Source: Flavobacteriales bacterium (GTDB taxonomy: Bacteria; Bacteroidota; Bacteroidia; Flavobacteriales_D; Sanyastnellaceae). Taken from it: a stretch of 34,847 nt of DNA. Position numbers and translations under genes: made by a program. Where the stretch lies: assembly GCA_029238785.1 (NCBI GenBank), contig JAQWFN010000021.1, positions 1 to 34,847 on the forward strand, given 5' to 3'. How positions within the stretch are numbered: position 1 is the first letter of the stretch; every line of letters begins with the position of its first letter. The notes beneath the pieces were generated by a model. The model was not told the origin of the DNA, ran no database searches, and was given only the letters and a program-made list of their open reading frames with translations. This document shows, piece after piece, positions 5,601 through 19,433 of the stretch.

Positions 5601-6265
5601 TGAAAAAGACGTTGAAACTTTTGATTGATCAATTGCTGATCGCTGATATCTTGTATGGTTCCTGTAATCAAAGCTTGATCACCTTCACCAATTAAAAAGG
5701 CATTCTCAATGCAATAAGCTATAGAACCATCCTTTCGCAAATAAGCATTTTCGTAGTTTTTCAATCGCTTCTTAGCATGAAGCTCAGACAAAAAAGTGTG
5801 CCTATCGCTGTTGTTTACATAAAGCTTAAAACCATCTGAACCGAGCAATTCCTCTTTTGAATATGCAAGTATTTCTGCAAAAGCATCATTGCATGAAATC
5901 ACAACTCCATGTAAATTACTTTGGTAAACACCTGCAATGTTGTGCTTAAATAATGAGGATTCTAGCGAATCACTGTTCGATTTTGAAGTAATGTGAAGTA
6001 GCGCTAATTGACCGTTTTTGGGTTGAAAATGAAGAAAGTGCTCTTCCCACTTTAAGATTAACTCGCTAGGTTCATTTCTGCTAAAACCACACTTTTCTAA
6101 AAGATCATACAGCTCTTTAGCACAAGTCAATTCTGGAAAATCTGATTCAACAGCTGTATTGTGAAGCAAAATTGTTTGCTCATGAAAATTCAGAATCCAA
6201 TGAGGATCACTGCTCTTCAGAACAAGTTCTTCTAACTTCTTTATTAGCTCATTATTCATCACCAT
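2699..6265 (-). CDS. Soluble multi-PAS sensor histidine kinase (HisKA_2 type)
   Basis: A 1188-residue cytoplasmic kinase with no membrane segment. After a degenerate PAS-like start (1–95) there are about seven PAS/PAC modules, each ending in a PAC-like motif such as GTIQDISD, VIVRDISER, LFYDITKRK, GVSRDITD, GIFRDITS or LAYDISDRK. A coiled-coil linker lies between PAS 4 and 5. The kinase core has the HisKA_2 box LQEVHHRVKNNLQ (phospho-His near residue 1000), then an HATPase domain with N box NELVSNALKYAF, G1 box DNGIGLP and G2 box SLGLYLVYAL. It overlaps the MORN gene: ATGs at 6265 and 6259 both precede that gene's stop at 6252–6254. An AAGGA sits 4 or 10 nt upstream respectively, so the exact start is uncertain. 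The number of PAS domains implies integration of several cytosolic or redox/ligand cues; no heme or FAD site could be assigned. Confidence 0.92.
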   Translation of the reverse strand: MVMNNELIKKLEELVLKSSDPHWILNFHEQTILLHNTAVESDFPELTCAKELYDLLEKCGFSRNEPSELILKWEEHFLHFQPKNGQLALLHITSKSNSDSLESSLFKHNIAGVYQSNLHGVVISCNDAFAEILAYSKEELLGSDGFKLYVNNSDRHTFLSELHAKKRLKNYENAYLRKDGSIAYCIENAFLIGEGDQALITGTIQDISDQQLINQKFQRLFHAASDVVFILEEDTIIEANKRSNEVFAYKEKELVGRKVWDRVDGLFLFSDNDFDLLEHKLKHLEKESDRKRIKLLARRSDASVFHSEVFMVSFTVGKRSFIQVIVRDISERVLYENSIRESEERFRLMSQAAIEGMLILENNYIIDCNDQWVKMMDYRRPEELLGKNIRDFLSEGDVRRIESTFDHKSINKTEIRVQTKEGKTLVLEATGSEILYLGSPRSVVLFYDITKRKRTEQALEQSIDRYKNLVENSPNGIFILTDSKIKYLNLSALNLLEVKDEDEVYDKPFSSFFTKTQVALIDYVLKETREGEDIEYQEYVMENKLGEEVQVGIKAILTVYDNQPSIQVTVNNLSTRMMLLQEQMRAEIAEEINVVLKREIEDHKSTQLQLLQARNFTRNIIESSIDMIIAFDENEAITEFNSAAQQQFKYTLNKVQGMSIRMLYANEKDYDRVMSMLKEKQFFTGEIENIDAEGNVFTSLLSASVIRNQKGEIEGSMGVSRDITDFKLAEQELKDSEAKYRDLFENATDFILNINDDGLLLYANNAFKRTLGIDENEEGINFFDLIKGGKREFKYGILKGLSDGTHEMVLVAKSGEEIIIQGNCSIRYKNGQADSVRGIFRDITSARVHEKKAREQTAKMISIFNSTENLMMWTIDKKGRITSFNTNFHACMRDDFSIEIQRKSNYLKQIVNSLNPAQHQSQLDSFKLAFKGRPQQFELPLLTESAKEVWHQIFLNPIYVDDDLDEISCLAYDISDRKEIDQKIRSSLREKEVLLQEVHHRVKNNLQVISSILNLQSSFVEDEKTLEILAESQNRIKTMSYIHETLYQTSDFSSIGFSEYIETLARNLHQSYSPRDSKIELDLQTEEIVLDLDQAIPCGLIMNELVSNALKYAFKGRTEGVLSIRVSRNKEKVELEVKDNGIGLPEGFKPEDSDSLGLYLVYALVEQLDAEITLSNSKGTGFLITFDF

Positions 6266-7790
6266 CTTTTCCTTCAATCAACACTTTGCTTCCGTCAATT
6301 TTTTCTGTTTTTCCAAAGTTGTATTTAATGCTTAAGATGAGTAGTCCAGCTTCGTCATAAAATTTCCACTTGCCGTGTTTCTCACCAGCTTCGTAGGCAC
6401 CTTCTTCTTTAACTACGCCATTTTCGTAGTAATACTTGTGTTTTCCAACGGGCACACCAATTTGATATTCTCCTTCAAAATTCCTTTTTCCATTTAAATA
6501 GGTGAACTTCCATTTTCCATCTTTTTCTCCATCCAAATACGCCCCCTCTTCTTTATGATCATTTACGAAGTAATACCATTCGCCAGTTTTATAACCATCG
6601 ATGTAGGCTCCTTTATGAATTACTTCACCTTCTTCATTGTATTCTACAAACTCGCCTTCTTCTTTACCCTTCCTGTAGTATTCTTCTCGATGTATCTCCC
6701 CATTTTTAAAATACCAACGCCACTCTCCTTGGGGTAAATCTAAACGGTACGCACCTTTCTGCGCAATTTTTCCCTCCGCGTGATAGAATACCCATGGACC
6801 TTCTCTTAATCCATCAACATAAGCACCCTCAGCTTGAATTTCTCCCGTAGGATAGTAGATTTTCCAATCGCCTTGCCTTCTGCCCTCTTCATCCACGATA
6901 CCCTCACCAAGCAGTAAATTTTCTTTGTAAACGTAAGATTGAATTACATTTCCTTCTTCATCATACTCCCGGAAGGTACCTTGTTTTGATCCATTTTTGT
7001 ACGAACCAACCAACTTGAGTTTTCCACTCTGAAAATATTCTTTGCGGATGTCTAAAAGTTGAGCCTCATCTGCGTCTGTTAAAAGTTGACCACCTTGATA
7101 TTTTTCAATTTTCTGAAGTTCACCTTTGCTGTTGTAGTACTTAAAAATGCCGTTTTTAATGCCGTTAGTGTAATACCCTTCTGTTTTCCTGTTTCCGTTT
7201 GGCCAAAATTCAATCCAAACCCCTTTTTTCTGTTGCTGGCTGTTATAGCGATTGATGCGTTCTATACTTCTGATAAAGCCCTTCTCATAATTTAAAAGGG
7301 TAATGATGCTGCCGTCTTTACCAAACTCTTTCCCATTTCCCTCTTCCTTTCCTTCGATAAATGGAACTTCCCTGTATAATTCACCACTTTTGTAATAAAA
7401 TTCGGCCCCACCATTTTCAATTCCGGCCTGAAAAGGAACTTTTTCTAGTAGCACTCCAGTTTCCGAAAAAACAAGTTGAAGTCCGTCTTTCTTTCCAAAT
7501 TTGTACTCAATTGATTTCTCAATACTCCCGTCTTCTCTGAAGAATTTCCATTCGCCATCAAGTTCAAAATTAGATCTACTTCCCTCCGTTTTTAACTGTC
7601 CAGATGGATAGTATGTTTTCCACAATCCTTCTGGTTTGCCATTGAACATATTGCCCTCACTTGAAATTGTGCCATCTTCATATCTAAAAATTTGGTAGGT
7701 CGAATTTAAACTGTCTTGCTGTGCAAAAACGACACTGCAAATGAACAGAAAGAATAGCGAAACGGAAAAATGGCTTATCAAGGACTTCAT
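6252..7790 (-). CDS. Secreted MORN-repeat protein (YwqK-like)
   Basis: A 512-residue protein with a Sec signal peptide (SVSLFFLFICSVVFA, cleavage near residue 23) and then almost wholly MORN_2-type repeats. Units of about 20–24 residues follow the pattern G-x-W-x-x-Y-(x)n-G-x-x-x-x-E-G, for example PEGLWKTYYPSGQLKTEG, REGPWVFYHAEGKIAQKG and KHGKWKFYDEAG. Some 18–20 units fill residues 30–500. Databases often label such proteins 'YwqK family antitoxin', but here the signal peptide and context argue for an exported beta-sheet scaffold. It overlaps the histidine kinase start, so it heads a three-gene unit with the kinase and LytTR regulator and may help in sensing or be linked to the response. 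A weak −7 element (TATCTTTA on the minus strand, 7814–7821) lies 24 bp upstream. Confidence 0.85.
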   Translation of the reverse strand: MKSLISHFSVSLFFLFICSVVFAQQDSLNSTYQIFRYEDGTISSEGNMFNGKPEGLWKTYYPSGQLKTEGSRSNFELDGEWKFFREDGSIEKSIEYKFGKKDGLQLVFSETGVLLEKVPFQAGIENGGAEFYYKSGELYREVPFIEGKEEGNGKEFGKDGSIITLLNYEKGFIRSIERINRYNSQQQKKGVWIEFWPNGNRKTEGYYTNGIKNGIFKYYNSKGELQKIEKYQGGQLLTDADEAQLLDIRKEYFQSGKLKLVGSYKNGSKQGTFREYDEEGNVIQSYVYKENLLLGEGIVDEEGRRQGDWKIYYPTGEIQAEGAYVDGLREGPWVFYHAEGKIAQKGAYRLDLPQGEWRWYFKNGEIHREEYYRKGKEEGEFVEYNEEGEVIHKGAYIDGYKTGEWYYFVNDHKEEGAYLDGEKDGKWKFTYLNGKRNFEGEYQIGVPVGKHKYYYENGVVKEEGAYEAGEKHGKWKFYDEAGLLILSIKYNFGKTEKIDGSKVLIEGKDGDE

Positions 7791-8255
7791 TAACTATATA
7801 TTCTTTTTAAAAATAAAGATAGGTTTAATAATAGGGGTGTTCATTCAGTGTAAAAAAACACAAATGATTATTTGTTTGTTTGACTTGTTAACGCACATTA
7901 CTTGTTTATAAACATCTTATGAGCTAGTTTTTTGTTCATCCTCAGTTTATTGAGCACTTTATTAACTTTAGTGTTAACAAGACCAGGTGATATAACTTTT
8001 TCTAAATATGGGGTTAACAAGTGTGAAGATTTTGGTCGGTAACATTATCAAAACCACTTGCTAAAATACTTGCATTGTTCATAAGCTTTCTTGGTTGCAA
8101 TTTTATCTGGTTAAAGCAAGCTTTTTTAATCATGGCTTATGAACAGAATTTAAATTTATGAACCACTTTCTTGTTCATAAGTGCTTTGGTGCAACACATC
8201 TTAGTGTGGCATTGATTTAGCGCTATCTTTGTGAGACGTAAATTAACAAAAGCAG
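7791..8255. other. Repeat-rich intergenic region; candidate replication origin
   Basis: This 465-bp gene-free, AT-rich stretch lies between divergent genes and is dense in short repeats. The 9-mer TTATGAACA or TTATAAACA is found at 7906–7914 (+), 7903–7911 (−, overlapping to form the palindrome TGTTTATAAACA), 8076–8084 (−), 8137–8145 (+) and 8172–8180 (−). Near copies are at 8156–8164 (+) and 7933–7939 (−). GTTAACAAG occurs at 7973–7981 and 8013–8021, and inverted at 7884–7892. All the 9-mers fit TTATnnACA, the frame of the DnaA box TTATCCACA, but differ at the two central positions. An AT-rich block (GAATTTAAATTTATG, 8146–8160) lies within the cluster. Two parS sites lie 5–7 kb away. An origin is the favoured inference; a multi-site operator is the alternative. 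Confidence 0.45.
8201..8231 (+). promoter_or_regulatory. Promoter of rpiB
   Basis: TATCTTTG at 8224–8231 matches the Bacteroidota −7 consensus TAnnTTTG exactly and lies 24 bp before the rpiB ATG. A TTAG at 8201–8204, 19 bp upstream, is one mismatch from the TTTG −33 element. The promoter sits at the right edge of the repeat cluster. Confidence 0.6.
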
Positions 8256-8693
8256 ATGCAAAAGTCGATTATTATTGGTTCAGACCACGCAGGTTTTGAG
8301 CTTAAATCTAAAATGGTTGATCTTCTTAAATCAGAAGGTTATGAAGTTAAGGATGTTGGAACACATTCGAGTGATAGCACTGATTATCCGGAGTTTGCGC
8401 ATGCCGTTGCAGCAGGTGTTGATGATGAAAGCTATCCTTTAGGCGTTTTGATCTGCGGATCAGCAAATGGGGTTTGTATGACGGCAAACAAGCATCAAAA
8501 TGTTAGAGCTGGAATTGCATGGGAAGTTGAATTAGCTCAATTAACCAGACAACACAACAACGCAAACGTTCTTTGTTTACCGGCACGTTTTATTTCTGAG
8601 GACTTGGCTGGAGACATTTTGAGAGCATTCATTAATACTCCATTCGAAGGTGGAAGACACGATCGTCGAGTTAATAAAATTGCACTATGTTAA
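8256..8693 (+). CDS. rpiB: Ribose-5-phosphate isomerase B
   Basis: A 145-residue RpiB of normal length, interconverting ribose-5-phosphate and ribulose-5-phosphate in the non-oxidative pentose phosphate pathway. Landmarks are GSDHAGFELK at the N-terminus (D10, H11), the active-site Cys in LICGSANG (C67), TANKH, RQHNNANVL (H100) and the C-terminal EGGRHDRRV phosphate-binding motif. The anion-hole loop reads CGSANGVC rather than the CGTGIG familiar from E. coli, and carries a second cysteine (C74). It starts 24 bp after an exact TAnnTTTG promoter element. Its stop (8691–8693) overlaps the ATG of the next gene by 7 bp, so the two are translationally coupled. Confidence 0.95.
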   Translation: MQKSIIIGSDHAGFELKSKMVDLLKSEGYEVKDVGTHSSDSTDYPEFAHAVAAGVDDESYPLGVLICGSANGVCMTANKHQNVRAGIAWEVELAQLTRQHNNANVLCLPARFISEDLAGDILRAFINTPFEGGRHDRRVNKIALC

Positions 8694-13326: not shown

Positions 13327-13350
13327 GATGTGTTCCACGTGGAACACATC
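13327..13350. promoter_or_regulatory. parS site 1 (ParB-binding palindrome) downstream of mnmG
   Basis: The core TGTTCCACGTGGAACA (13331–13346) matches the parS consensus TGTTNCACGTGNAACA at every defined position. The symmetry extends to a perfect 24-bp palindrome (13327–13350, outer arms GATG/CATC) that ends on the first base of the mnmG stop codon. ParB clamps load at parS for chromosome segregation, and such sites cluster near replication origins in most bacteria. Confidence 0.88.
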
Positions 13351-15221
13351 TATCTACCTAAATAAACGAGGAGCATTGAAATGTCAGACGGTTTAATTCC
13401 AGAAATTCTGGATGCTTGTCCGATTGTTTCTGGTCGAACCGCTTTGAGTTTTTCTTTTGCCTCAGCTCCGAGACTAGCAAGCTTGTCGTATTCAAAGTTG
13501 GTAGGTAGGCTAATTGAGTCTAAGCGACTAAGTTTTTCTGCCATCTCTTGTTCTTTGCTGATATAGCCTTCGTACTTCATTTGGATTTCAGCCAATTGAA
13601 AAACCTCCTCACCCAATTCTGCTAAACCAGATTTGAATTCTTCCAATGCAGGAATGTGTTTTTTAAGATCGTTTAATGTGATGTGCGGTCTGGTGATGAC
13701 ACTAGAGAGTTTAACTTTTTGTTTGAGGCCAGGGGTATCCAAATTCTCGAGATAGGTATTAATTTCCTCAGGAGAGGTGCTGTAGTTGTTAATGAAGTCT
13801 TGTGTTTGCTCTACAAGTTTTGATTTTCGATCAGTATGCCTCAAACGCTCTTCAGATGCAAGACCTAATGAATGAGATAGTGGTGTGAGTCGCTGGTCGG
13901 CATTGTCTTGTCGAAGTAGTATTCTGTACTCAGCTCTTGATGTAAACATGCGGTAAGGCTCTTCGGTTCCCTTGGTTATGAGATCATCAATCAATACGCC
14001 AATATATGCTTCAGACCTGTTTAAGATGAAGGGGTCTTTATCCTGAATAGAAAGATGCGCATTGATACCGGCCATGAGTCCTTGACATGCTGCTTCCTCG
14101 TACCCAGTAGTTCCGTTAATTTGTCCTGCGAAATATAATCCTGATACCAATTTCGTTTCAAGAGTGTGTTTCAATTGGGTGGGAGGAAAGTAGTCGTATT
14201 CGATGGCATACCCGGGGCGAAACATTTTACAATTTTCAAATCCAGGAATGGTTTTAATAGCGCGCATTTGTACTTCTTCGGGCAAGCTTGTAGAAAAACC
14301 ATTGACATAGATTTCAATGGTTGACCTTCCTTCAGGTTCAACAAAGATCTGATGACGTTCACGGTCGGCAAAACGATCAATTTTATCTTCTATTGAAGGA
14401 CAGTAGCGCGGACCTTTACCTCGAATTCTACCGTTGAACATTGGTGAGCGATCAAAACCTTCGCGCAGAATATCGTGCACATCTGGATTGGTGTAAGTGA
14501 TGTGGCAGGGGAGTTGATTGCTAATGGTATGGTGAGGTAAATATGAGAATCTTTCTGGATGTTCATCGCCAGGTTGTTCTTCCATTTTACTGTAGTCTAA
14601 AGAACGGCCATCAACCCTTGGTGGTGTTCCTGTTTTCATTCGACCAGCTTCGAATCCTAATGACACAAGTTGTTCAGTAATGCCGTGAGCGGCCTTTTCA
14701 CCAGCTCTGCCACCACCAAATTGCTTTTCACCAAGATGGATCAATCCGTTCAAAAAGGTACCGTTGGTAAGCACTACAGACTTAGCAAAGATGTGTTGCC
14801 CCATGCTGGTGATAACACCTTCACAACGTTCGTTATTTACAATTAGACCTACCACCATATCTTGCCAAAAGTCGAGTCCTTTGGTTTGCTCTAGGCGATA
14901 TCTCCAGTCGTTGGCAAATACCATTCGGTCGTTTTGCGTTCTCGGACTCCACATAGCAGGGCCCTTGCTTTTATTGAGCATACGAAACTGGATGGCTGAA
15001 ACATCAGAAACAAGACCGGAGTAGCCTCCTAGGGCATCAATTTCTCGCACGATTTGACCTTTGGCAATACCACCCATTGCGGGGTTGCATGACATTTGTC
15101 CAATGGTATTCATGTTCATGGTAATCATCAGTACAGAGGATCCCATATTTGCAGCGGCTGCAGCAGCTTCATTGCCGGCATGTCCGCCACCCACAACGAT
15201 TACATCGTAATTTGGTAGCAT
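13350..15221 (-). CDS. mnmG: tRNA uridine-5-carboxymethylaminomethyl modification enzyme MnmG
   Basis: A full-length 623-residue MnmG (GidA). With MnmE it installs the (carboxymethyl)aminomethyl group on U34 of several tRNAs, using FAD. Landmarks are the N-terminal dinucleotide fold [12 protein letters not shown], the [12 protein letters not shown] motif, [10 protein letters not shown], the conserved [15 protein letters not shown] and the C-terminal helical MnmE/tRNA-binding region (YEGYISKEQ…ISMLLVYLG). It is last in the leftward group DUF4175–ATPase–ybeY–mnmG, 33 bp after ybeY. One parS site lies 11 bp upstream of its ATG and another abuts its stop codon. Confidence 0.98.
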
Positions 15222-15232
15222 AGTATATAAAA

Positions 15233-15248
15233 TGTTCCACGTGAAACA
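15233..15248. promoter_or_regulatory. parS site 2 between ybeY and mnmG
   Basis: TGTTCCACGTGAAACA fits the parS consensus TGTTNCACGTGNAACA exactly and equals the well-known parS inside Bacillus subtilis spo0J as I recall it. It sits in the 33-bp gap before mnmG, so ParB loading here would lie inside the operon. Together with site 1 it brackets mnmG, 1.9 kb apart. Confidence 0.88.
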
Positions 15249-16115: not shown

Positions 16116-19100
16116 TTAACGCTCTAAATTATTAAAATATTCATTCACTTTATCCCTATAGTAAGGTTTTAGTGATGGAGGTACTGTTTTCAGCATTTCT
16201 AGCTCACGTTGTTTCTGCAATTGGTACTCGCTGAATTTCATCGGAACACTCTGCAAATTTTGATCGCCAGACGCTGATTTTCGCTTGTCATCTTCTCCTC
16301 GGGTGCGCTCTGCTTCCTCCGCTTTTAGCAGTCTTATTAGGATATCTTGCTGGCGCATCATTGTCTCAGGAGTGATGTTTTGATTAACGATATCGCGCTC
16401 AATTTGTTCCATTTCTTCAGCAATCTTTTGCAATTCATTGCCAGAGCCACTGCCGTCTTTGTTTAATTCCTGACCCATTTTCTGTAGCATTTGGCGAATG
16501 GCAGCTTGCTTCGCAGCCTGCTGAGCAAGTTCCTTACTCATGCCCTCCTGTCCTTTTGACTCTCCTTTATTGGCGTCTTTACCCATTTTCTTTTTAAGCG
16601 CTTCGAGCTGTTGACTCAAACCTTGCTGCATCTTCTTTACATCTCCTGCGCTAGGCTTCGGCGCTCCATTTCCACCAGGTTTTTCACAATTACCTTTACC
16701 CGGTTTTTTACACGACATCTGTTGTTGCATCTGCTGCAGCGCCTCATCTAAAAGTAATGCGAGATTATTGAAACTGGTCATCACATACTGCTGATTGGTG
16801 ACCACCTCGGGTGTTTGTCGCTCAGCAATTCCATCCAAAGCCTTGCCCATGTATTCATTCACCAAGCCAATTTCCCTGTTCACTATGGCTTGGATTTGAA
16901 CTACGCGTTTGCTCAGAGCAAAGAGCGAATCTTCAACCATTTTGGCATCGGTCTTCAATTTTCTTTGCAATTGGCCATATTCAATGTACTTCGGATCGTT
17001 TTTGTCAATTGCCTGAATATCAGACATTAACTGCTCCTCATCAAATGAGAGTGTAATGATGTTTTCAAGCAAGGCACGCAAGGCTTCCATATCTTCCTCT
17101 TGGCTTTCTTGCTCTTGCTGGTCCATGGCCATTTCCATTTTTTGGGCCATTTCTTCCATTTTTTCTGCCGCACCTTGCTGTGACTCTCCAGCCTTACTTT
17201 TCTTTCCCTTATCAAGCTGCTCAGAGCTTTTTTCCATATCTTCCTTAATGGCGTCCTGATCTTCTTGCGTTTCGGGAATAGCATTAGGGTCCTCCAGCTG
17301 TTCGTTCAACTTTTCCAATTCTTTGAGGTCTTCTTGAACTTGCTCAAATTGATCGTTCAGTTTCTCTTGTTCTTCTTTCAGTTCTTCGCTGTCTTTCTCT
17401 CCTTTTTCGCTCTCTTTAGCCAGTTCTTCTTGCTTTTCAGCGAGTTCTTTCATCTTGTCAATTGTGTTTTCCATCTTCATTTCAAACTCCAATTGTTTGA
17501 ATTGCTCCAATGCCCTGTCAAGTTCCTTTTCAAGGTCTTGATTGTCCATGTTCATTTGCTCAAGCTGCTCTTGGATCTCATCTTTGTTCATTTCTTCCAT
17601 GAGCTTTTCGAGCTCCTTGAATAAGGCTTTCATCTCATCAGACATGACTTCATCAAAGAGCTTTTGAAGCTGTTCTTGTTTCTGTCTGATTTCCTCGTCC
17701 TGCTGCTTCATTTGAGCGTTTTGCTCGTCTTTCTGCTTGTTCTCTTTTTGAAGTTCTTCAACTTGTTTCTGCAGTTTTTCCTGGGCTTTCATCAAGTCTT
17801 CCAACTTTTTCTTCTCTTCCCAGCCCATTTCTTTTTTATCAAGAAGGTCTCTTCTTAATTCTTCAAGTTCTTTCTGAAGATCTTGAGCATCATCAATGCT
17901 TTTTTCAAGCTTGTCTTTAATGTCTTCGTTCTTCTCTTCTTGTGCGTTTTCTAGTTCCTCTTCTGTTGGAGCAGAGAGCTGCTGAATTTTGGTTCGAGCA
18001 CTTTTTGAACCGTTAACACCATCATTGTCCCAAACCTCAAAGTAATAGGAAAGTTGAGCACCCGGCTCAATTCCCAAGGATGCAAGCTGCCAGTGATAAA
18101 AGAACTGTCCAGAATTGTTCTTTGGTGCTTCTAAATCAATCACCTTGGTGTCTCCCTCGTTCAAGGTGTATTTGAACTGAAGTCGTTTGAAGCCGTAATC
18201 ATCTTTCACTTCACCTGTGAAGAAAAGGTCAGTATAACTCAAACTATCGCGCTCTTCCTCTACAAAAATGCTTGGGTGCATGTCTGGCACCACATTGATC
18301 TTGTAAGTCATGGAGTCTTTCGACCGCATGAAGGCATTCGCAGTGTGAAGGGTATAGGGCGTGTTTTTACTTGCTGTTAGTTGATGGGTGTAGTGATTGC
18401 GGTCTCTTCCAGGAAGGTCGATGCGTTCACCATCGATGGTCATTTCCACCCGGTCGGTATTTACCGTTTCAAAATCCCATAAAATCTTGGTTCCTTCGGG
18501 CACTGTTATATCCCCAGAATTCCGCAATTGCTCGTCAGGAGAACCAATGTAGGCAGGATAATCTAGGGCAGTAATGAAATTAACCAAAAGTGGTTTTGAT
18601 AAGGTTTTGAGCGTGTATTCTTCTGAGAAAAAGCCGTTACCATAAATTCTGAATGGGGTGTCTTTTTGAACATTTCTGAAAATGTATTCGAAGTTTGTTC
18701 TGCTATCGTTCGAGAAGGGAAACCTTGTTCCTTTTAGTTCTACATAAAGTTGGTTTGGAATTTCTTTACCGCTCACCTTGATGTCGAGCACAAAATCTTC
18801 TTTTTCAGGAGTTTCCAGCTTCGGGTTGATGATTTCAATTTGATAGGGAGCAAGAGGTACAATTTCTGTGCTGTGATTGATTAATCGCTCTGTACTTTCA
18901 CTCACGGTGTTTGGTGCGATGAGAACAATGAGCAAGAAAATACCTAGGGGTGGAAGGACATACTTCAGGTACTTTTTATTTTCGCCGAAGTTGATGGCTG
19001 AGGCAAAAGGAACGGGGCTTAATTCATTGGTTTTCTGAGTGATACTAGCTTCTAATAGGGTATCAGAGGCGGCGTTTTCAGCCATGCGCTTAAGTTGAAG

Positions 19101-19433
19101 CGTATTGAGGAGCTTGTCTTTCACGTCGGGAAAGTGGCTCCCAACGATGGATGAAGCTTGCTCATAAGAAATCACTTTACCAAGTCGGAATAATTTGCTC
19201 ATGGGGAGGAAGAGCCATCTCCCTAATACAGCTAAGCTGCTCAAAACAAAAGTCCAAAACAAAAGCGTTCGAATAGCACTATTGAAATGACCAACAGACT
19301 CAAGTAAAGTCACCAAAAGAAAGAAAACCACAATAAGGCCTAAGCTGTATAAGGCACCCTTGAGCATTTGATTCTTGTAGTACTTTCTTATAAAATCGTC
19401 GAGCTTTTCAATGAGCCCCTCATATCCACCCAT
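16116..19433 (-). CDS. DUF4175 family large membrane coiled-coil protein
   Basis: A 1105-residue protein. Membrane segments are seen at about residues 24–45, 52–72 and 158–180. A beta-rich, probably periplasmic region (190–480) follows, then a long Glu/Lys/Gln-rich coiled coil (about 490–760, with repeats such as EELQKENKQKDEQNAQ). Next come a helical part rich in Met/Gln, a Lys/Gly linker with paired cysteines (CKKPGKGNCEKPGG, about 905–918), and a C-terminal helix ending YYRDKVNEYFNNLER. The overall plan fits the DUF4175 family of Bacteroidota; its function is unknown to me. It heads the transcript leading into the ATPase, ybeY and mnmG, suggesting an envelope or growth-linked housekeeping role. 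Its codon usage makes the opposite strand open over long stretches; those are shadows. Confidence 0.85.
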   Translation of the reverse strand: MGGYEGLIEKLDDFIRKYYKNQMLKGALYSLGLIVVFFLLVTLLESVGHFNSAIRTLLFWTFVLSSLAVLGRWLFLPMSKLFRLGKVISYEQASSIVGSHFPDVKDKLLNTLQLKRMAENAASDTLLEASITQKTNELSPVPFASAINFGENKKYLKYVLPPLGIFLLIVLIAPNTVSESTERLINHSTEIVPLAPYQIEIINPKLETPEKEDFVLDIKVSGKEIPNQLYVELKGTRFPFSNDSRTNFEYIFRNVQKDTPFRIYGNGFFSEEYTLKTLSKPLLVNFITALDYPAYIGSPDEQLRNSGDITVPEGTKILWDFETVNTDRVEMTIDGERIDLPGRDRNHYTHQLTASKNTPYTLHTANAFMRSKDSMTYKINVVPDMHPSIFVEEERDSLSYTDLFFTGEVKDDYGFKRLQFKYTLNEGDTKVIDLEAPKNNSGQFFYHWQLASLGIEPGAQLSYYFEVWDNDGVNGSKSARTKIQQLSAPTEEELENAQEEKNEDIKDKLEKSIDDAQDLQKELEELRRDLLDKKEMGWEEKKKLEDLMKAQEKLQKQVEELQKENKQKDEQNAQMKQQDEEIRQKQEQLQKLFDEVMSDEMKALFKELEKLMEEMNKDEIQEQLEQMNMDNQDLEKELDRALEQFKQLEFEMKMENTIDKMKELAEKQEELAKESEKGEKDSEELKEEQEKLNDQFEQVQEDLKELEKLNEQLEDPNAIPETQEDQDAIKEDMEKSSEQLDKGKKSKAGESQQGAAEKMEEMAQKMEMAMDQQEQESQEEDMEALRALLENIITLSFDEEQLMSDIQAIDKNDPKYIEYGQLQRKLKTDAKMVEDSLFALSKRVVQIQAIVNREIGLVNEYMGKALDGIAERQTPEVVTNQQYVMTSFNNLALLLDEALQQMQQQMSCKKPGKGNCEKPGGNGAPKPSAGDVKKMQQGLSQQLEALKKKMGKDANKGESKGQEGMSKELAQQAAKQAAIRQMLQKMGQELNKDGSGSGNELQKIAEEMEQIERDIVNQNITPETMMRQQDILIRLLKAEEAERTRGEDDKRKSASGDQNLQSVPMKFSEYQLQKQRELEMLKTVPPSLKPYYRDKVNEYFNNLER

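Follow-up and report, generated by a model that had tools for sequence, protein, structure and literature searches.

In the accessible part of a study of Tenacibaculum (Flavobacteriales), Ori-Finder 2022 predicted the origin beside rpiB in 6 of 7 chromosomes, distant from dnaA as at the locus described here (PMC9864904); the call served only to orient the chromosomes, and that part describes no box anatomy, consensus or unwinding element, in place of which the box TTATNMACA can be given here. In Bacteroidetes, oriC is commonly far from dnaA (PMC4755523). An rpiB-adjacent origin distant from dnaA has already been predicted in Bacteroidota, and the new part is the box consensus and its possible basis in the protein. 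No experimentally mapped oriC of Flavobacteriales was found in the open papers searched, and literature searches found no marker-frequency map.

At the oriC of E. coli, the clustered 9-mers occupy both strands, one edge carries an AT-rich unwinding element, and mnmG is in the neighbourhood; all of these features recur at the present locus. On the other hand, the E. coli box is TTWTNCACA, whereas position 6 accepts A here; DnaA carries A423, K432 and A435, the E. coli residues being P423, R432 and T435; and dnaA is distant. The basal unwinding system (BUS) described for Bacillus subtilis and other bacteria (PMC8287927) consists of tandem DnaA boxes, a short G-rich spacer, central-A triplets ending 3'-GAT-5' by the box, and AT-rich DNA beyond. 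This layout is shared, but the boxes here fit the lineage motif and not TTATCCACA, and there are three trios only, with fewer in several relatives. Helicobacter (TCATTCACN; PMC5043019) and Thermotoga (AAACCTACCACC; PMC10225481) likewise represent bacterial groups with their own box consensus, and in the Epsilonproteobacteria changes in the domain IV helix have been proposed as its cause (PMC5043019). The epsilonproteobacterial core TTCAC, however, keeps C at position 6, which is the position altered here.

Gene context and DnaA boxes of the candidate origin

The window, that is, the whole 34.8-kb stretch of DNA that was analysed, belongs to a 3.1-Mb draft genome. Its 465-bp non-coding gap at 7791-8255 is, in all probability, the chromosomal replication origin (oriC) of this Flavobacteriales bacterium, as the first-pass annotation had suspected: the gap holds a cluster of boxes, skew puts the origin of four complete relatives at this locus, and the divergent gene arrangement and the sequence elements recur in the corresponding intergenic region of relatives. 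The flanking genes do diverge. On the minus strand lies a MORN-repeat protein gene (6252-7790; Pfam MORN_2, 4.8e-37), after which come a PAS histidine kinase and a LytTR regulator, and on the plus strand lies rpiB (8256-8693; Pfam LacAB_rpiB, 1.6e-55), followed by an M28 peptidase gene that overlaps it by a few bases. An in-frame fusion of rpiB to this downstream peptidase gene is seen in several genera of the same family that have small genomes (L013:1495-3417; L028:1468-3423), giving one frame of 640+ aa with RpiB and Peptidase_M28 domains. No RNA family was detected in the window by Rfam, and sigma-70-like promoter matches are at about the chance level.

Five exact TTATNAACA sites, with the sequences TTATAAACA and TTATGAACA, are present in the gap on both strands. 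Two of these putative DnaA boxes, TTATAAACA at 7903-7911 (minus) and 7906-7914 (plus), are the overlapping left and right halves of the 12-bp palindrome TGTTTATAAACA, so that four separate box places are obtained. The others read TTATGAACA and are located at 8076-8084 (minus; TTATCAACA in the sister species), 8137-8145 (plus) and 8172-8180 (minus), the latter two being kept in the sister species. In addition, near boxes are found at 7959-7967 (plus; TTATTAACT, with TTATGAACT in the sister species), 7972-7980 (minus; TTGTTAACA), 8045-8053 (plus; TTATCAAAA) and 8156-8164 (plus; TTATGAACC, not kept in the sister species). At both 7959 and 8076, the sister species differs at the free position 5 alone.

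The earlier statement that the five exact 9-mers exceed chance is borne out, since shuffles of the same region gave 0.18 exact TTATNMACA sites on average and 2 at most. With one mismatch allowed, nine sites compare with 2.8 expected, a number reached by 1 of 500 shuffles, and no stretch elsewhere in the window has more than 4. None of the sites in the gap equals the classical TTATCCACA, as had also been remarked, and every exact site in the window has A at position 6, where the E. coli-type R-box (TTWTNCACA) has C. Across the 3.1-Mb draft, TTATGAACA occurs 25 times, compared with 48 for its reversed control, and 3 of the 25 copies are in the gap. The paired arrangement TTATNMACA-N0-30-TGTKNATAA is found at a single place in the genome, 8137-8180.

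A predicted unwinding unit at the left edge of the gap

The AT-rich block had been placed inside the box cluster, but nearest-neighbour energy puts the 50 bp of lowest stability in the window (7784-7833) at the left edge of the gap and not in its middle. This block is the predicted DNA unwinding element and extends over the initial codons of the MORN gene. From the left edge of the gap, the order is the unstable block, TAA-TAA-TAG, GGG and TGTTCATTC. The three DnaA-trio-like triplets (7826-7834, plus; TAA-TAG-TAG in the sister species) are separated by the GGG spacer (7835-7837, plus; TA[AG]GG..TGTTNAT in relatives) from the putative proximal DnaA box of the unit, GAATGAACA (7838-7846, minus), next to which lies a second, weak tandem box-like site, TTTTACACT (7847-7855, minus). 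From 7790 to 7844, 54 of 55 bases are identical in the sister species, and the sole difference is in the trio region.

According to the BUS rule, at least three NAN trios lie within 16 bp of a DnaA box, and the better box has at most two mismatches to TTATCCACA or to a species-specific motif (PMC8287927). The trios TAA-TAA-TAG, the GGG spacer and the box at 7838 agree with the first part. Measured against the E. coli motif, the pair at 7838-7855 has 4 and 3 mismatches, compared with 2 and 2 for TTATNMACA, and it would agree with the second part only if the lineage motif were used.

In the form TA[AG]GG(0-2)TGTTNAT, the element is found in the rpiB-upstream regions of 29 of 74 relatives, compared with 0.08 in shuffles. 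It is always located 330-650 bp upstream of rpiB, and among the 74 relatives it never occurs within the nearer 330 bp or on the other strand. This strict form is absent from about 60% of the relatives. The tandem position of the second site is also conserved in relatives, where the site is often exact and the box starts are 8 or 9 bp apart; the number of trios varies, and many relatives have fewer than three in phase. By itself, the BUS core TARGGNTGTTNAT occurs more than once, with 4 matches in the genome and 10 for the reversed control. Genomes of other orders also have a similar unwinding element close to parS. In one of them (G378, L343:13460-13850), an unwinding-type element and four TTATTAACA boxes within 250 bp lie beside an L-aspartate oxidase-like gene, about 6 kb from parS.

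A probable relaxation of position 6 in the box of the lineage

The alignment of intergenic regions of relatives, proposed in the first-pass annotation, revealed the same elements. In the rpiB-upstream regions of 34 relatives, the most over-represented 9-mer is TTATGAACA (16 vs 0.5 expected). Over 74 such regions, which are related by descent so that the counts are not independent, position 5 of the box is free, and TTATN-x-ACA is enriched over shuffles 12.6-fold for A and 13.0-fold for C at x and less so for G (3.8-fold), and T is depleted to 0.4-fold; examples of these classes are TTATGAACA for A6, TTATCCACA for C6 and TTATGTACA for T6, and TTATCCACA is enriched 15-fold. Read from these sequences, the putative DnaA site of the lineage is TTATNMACA, with position 6 open to A as well as to the C that E. 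coli requires. Of the shifted consensus suggested earlier, the acceptance of A at position 6 therefore stands; the consensus is relaxed and not replaced, and it extends more widely than the lineage. No paper describing an A6 box in Bacteroidota was found.

It could be argued that the A6 boxes are secondary low-affinity sites, that DnaA affinity is highest for TTATNCACA, and that A is common merely because the DNA is AT-rich. The equal enrichment of A6 and C6, and that of TTATCCACA itself, would be compatible with this reading. However, T6 is equally AT-rich and is depleted, all exact boxes in the window carry A6, and the sister-species substitutions at 8076 and 7959 hit position 5 and leave A6, while the boxes at 8137 and 8172 are identical. 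We consider the low-affinity reading unlikely, although it keeps some weight, and a box that accepts A or C at position 6 is preferred.

Position of the origin

As the genome of the window lies in 132 contigs, complete relatives were used for the analysis of GC skew. Four closed chromosomes were examined, one from the same family and three from other families of the order, with 20-kb stretches sampled around each, and third-codon GC skew was modelled as coding strand plus replichore. The best-fit origins are at 3.64, 0, 1.76 and 2.74 Mb, with narrow likelihood ranges, compared with rpiB at 3.633, 0.001 (886 bp), 1.757 and 2.742 Mb. Thus, the skew check that had been called for places the origin at the rpiB locus, at most about 20 kb from rpiB in all four relatives. 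An apparent mismatch between the raw GC skew of G013 and rpiB disappeared once coding strand was modelled. The cumulative skew minimum of the window itself is at 7684. Elsewhere in the window (16116-19433), a gene for a very Glu/Lys/Gln-rich coiled coil beside ybeY has a strong local skew and an AT-skew dip, which might wrongly be taken for the signal of an origin.

The two parS sites reported at 5–7 kb, the ParB binding sites TGTTCCACGTGGAACA (13331-13346) and TGTTCCACGTGAAACA (15233-15248), are 5.1 and 7.0 kb from the gap by measurement and are the only two in the genome. In the order, parS was found in 23 of 27 genomes, with 1-3 sites each. It lies near rpiB in most relatives tested, at a distance of about 5-36 kb when both are on one contig, except for one extra divergent site in G087. 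The dnaA gene is located on another contig in the genome of the window and is distant (1.98 Mb) in G013. In the complete genomes G098 and G121 (L188-L227, L241, L244), dnaA is the numbered start and the origins are at 1.76 and 2.74 Mb; these chromosomes are cut 1.6-1.8 Mb (shortest arc) from the origin, and numbering from dnaA misleads in this order.

The true origin might instead lie at mnmG (gidA), between the parS sites (13331-15248), with the rpiB gap a mere nearby box cluster. mnmG is a classic origin marker, and here it is flanked by parS sites. Moreover, Ori-Finder named mnmG as the origin in a Flavobacteriaceae strain (PMC12843772). At gene resolution, however, the residual skew to the left and right of the rpiB gap is -0.10/+0.06 in G013, -0.11/+0.14 in G098 and -0.08/+0.04 in G121, and the sign switches at this gap, not at mnmG/parS, in all three relatives for which both flanks were available. 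The skew of the genes between rpiB and parS already has the sign of the right replichore (+0.09 and +0.14 in G013 and G098), which tells the rpiB gap apart from mnmG. In addition, no TTATNMACA box occurs near mnmG; the sole TTATNNACA there is TTATTTACA at 14833, which belongs to the T6 class depleted in origins. An origin at mnmG is accordingly highly improbable, and the comparative skew, parS and motif evidence make the rpiB gap very likely the position of the origin.

A role of the repeats as transcription-factor operators for rpiB and/or the MORN-histidine kinase operon, as their place between divergent genes, the palindrome TGTTTATAAACA formed by two halves and the LytTR regulator encoded in the neighbouring operon might suggest, is rejected as extremely unlikely, because the cluster is seen nowhere else in the genome and is not the regulon motif upstream of many genes that the first-pass annotation had considered, because skew and parS coincide with it, and because the similar element and TTATTAACA cluster of G378 adjoin a different gene near parS, so that it is the origin, rather than rpiB, that the motif accompanies.

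DnaA residues and proposed mechanism

The comparison of DnaA domain IV, also proposed earlier, did reveal differences from E. coli. The motif reads GGKDHATVLHA in the genome of the window and GGRDHTTVLHA in E. coli; Ala, Lys and Ala occupy the positions of E. coli Pro423, Arg432 and Thr435, and Arg399 is unchanged. The base-contacting positions of DnaA are 399, 423, 432-435 and 438-439 (PMC5043019), and the recognition helix from residue 434 reads the TnCACA half, T435M being defective in box binding (PMC5742627). Among about 70 Bacteroidia sampled, T435 was found in none; the residue is mostly A, with S in a Bacteroidales-like group. Clusters of A6 boxes near parS are likewise seen in some Ser435 genomes (G378, G315 and G215), so A435 alone is not the explanation. 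Consequently, a specific co-evolution of A435 and the A6 box within Flavobacteriales is unsupported, and the association remains at class level, where a link between DnaA residues and box, read from sequence, is only a hypothesis. G006 and G038 (L249, L250) each encode, away from dnaA, a further short protein whose match resembles DnaA domain IV, in open frames of 149 and 173 aa.

By analogy with known origins, DnaA binding, strand opening and helicase loading may take place at 7791-8255. DnaA, encoded far off on another contig, would bind the spread TTATNAACA boxes by domain IV, nucleate on the box pair at 7838-7855 and advance from there on the strand of the trios (TAA-TAA-TAG) until it enters the AT-rich block at 7784-7833. 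The duplex would open in this block, leading to helicase loading and to forks in both directions, and ParB on the two parS sites would segregate the new origins. It is possible that DnaA has a dual use and also regulates rpiB.

Implications for Bacteroidia

Through this analysis, the origin of an uncultured lineage is located from a draft genome, and an explicit box consensus and unwinding element are given for Flavobacteriales. A broader proposal, for which the chances appear evenly balanced, is that in the class Bacteroidia a DnaA without the Thr435/Pro423 contacts (Ala or Ser at 435) goes with the box TTATN(A/C)ACA and with one conserved unwinding unit (AT block, trios, TA[AG]GG and TGTTNNT pair), which would stay with the origin as its neighbours change, from rpiB in Flavobacteriales to another gene in G378. 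This opens the testable question of whether the changes at DnaA 423, 432 and 435 cause the tolerance of A at box position 6. If the proposal is true, systematic under-calling of the origins of Bacteroidia would be expected from origin finders that rely on TTATCCACA.
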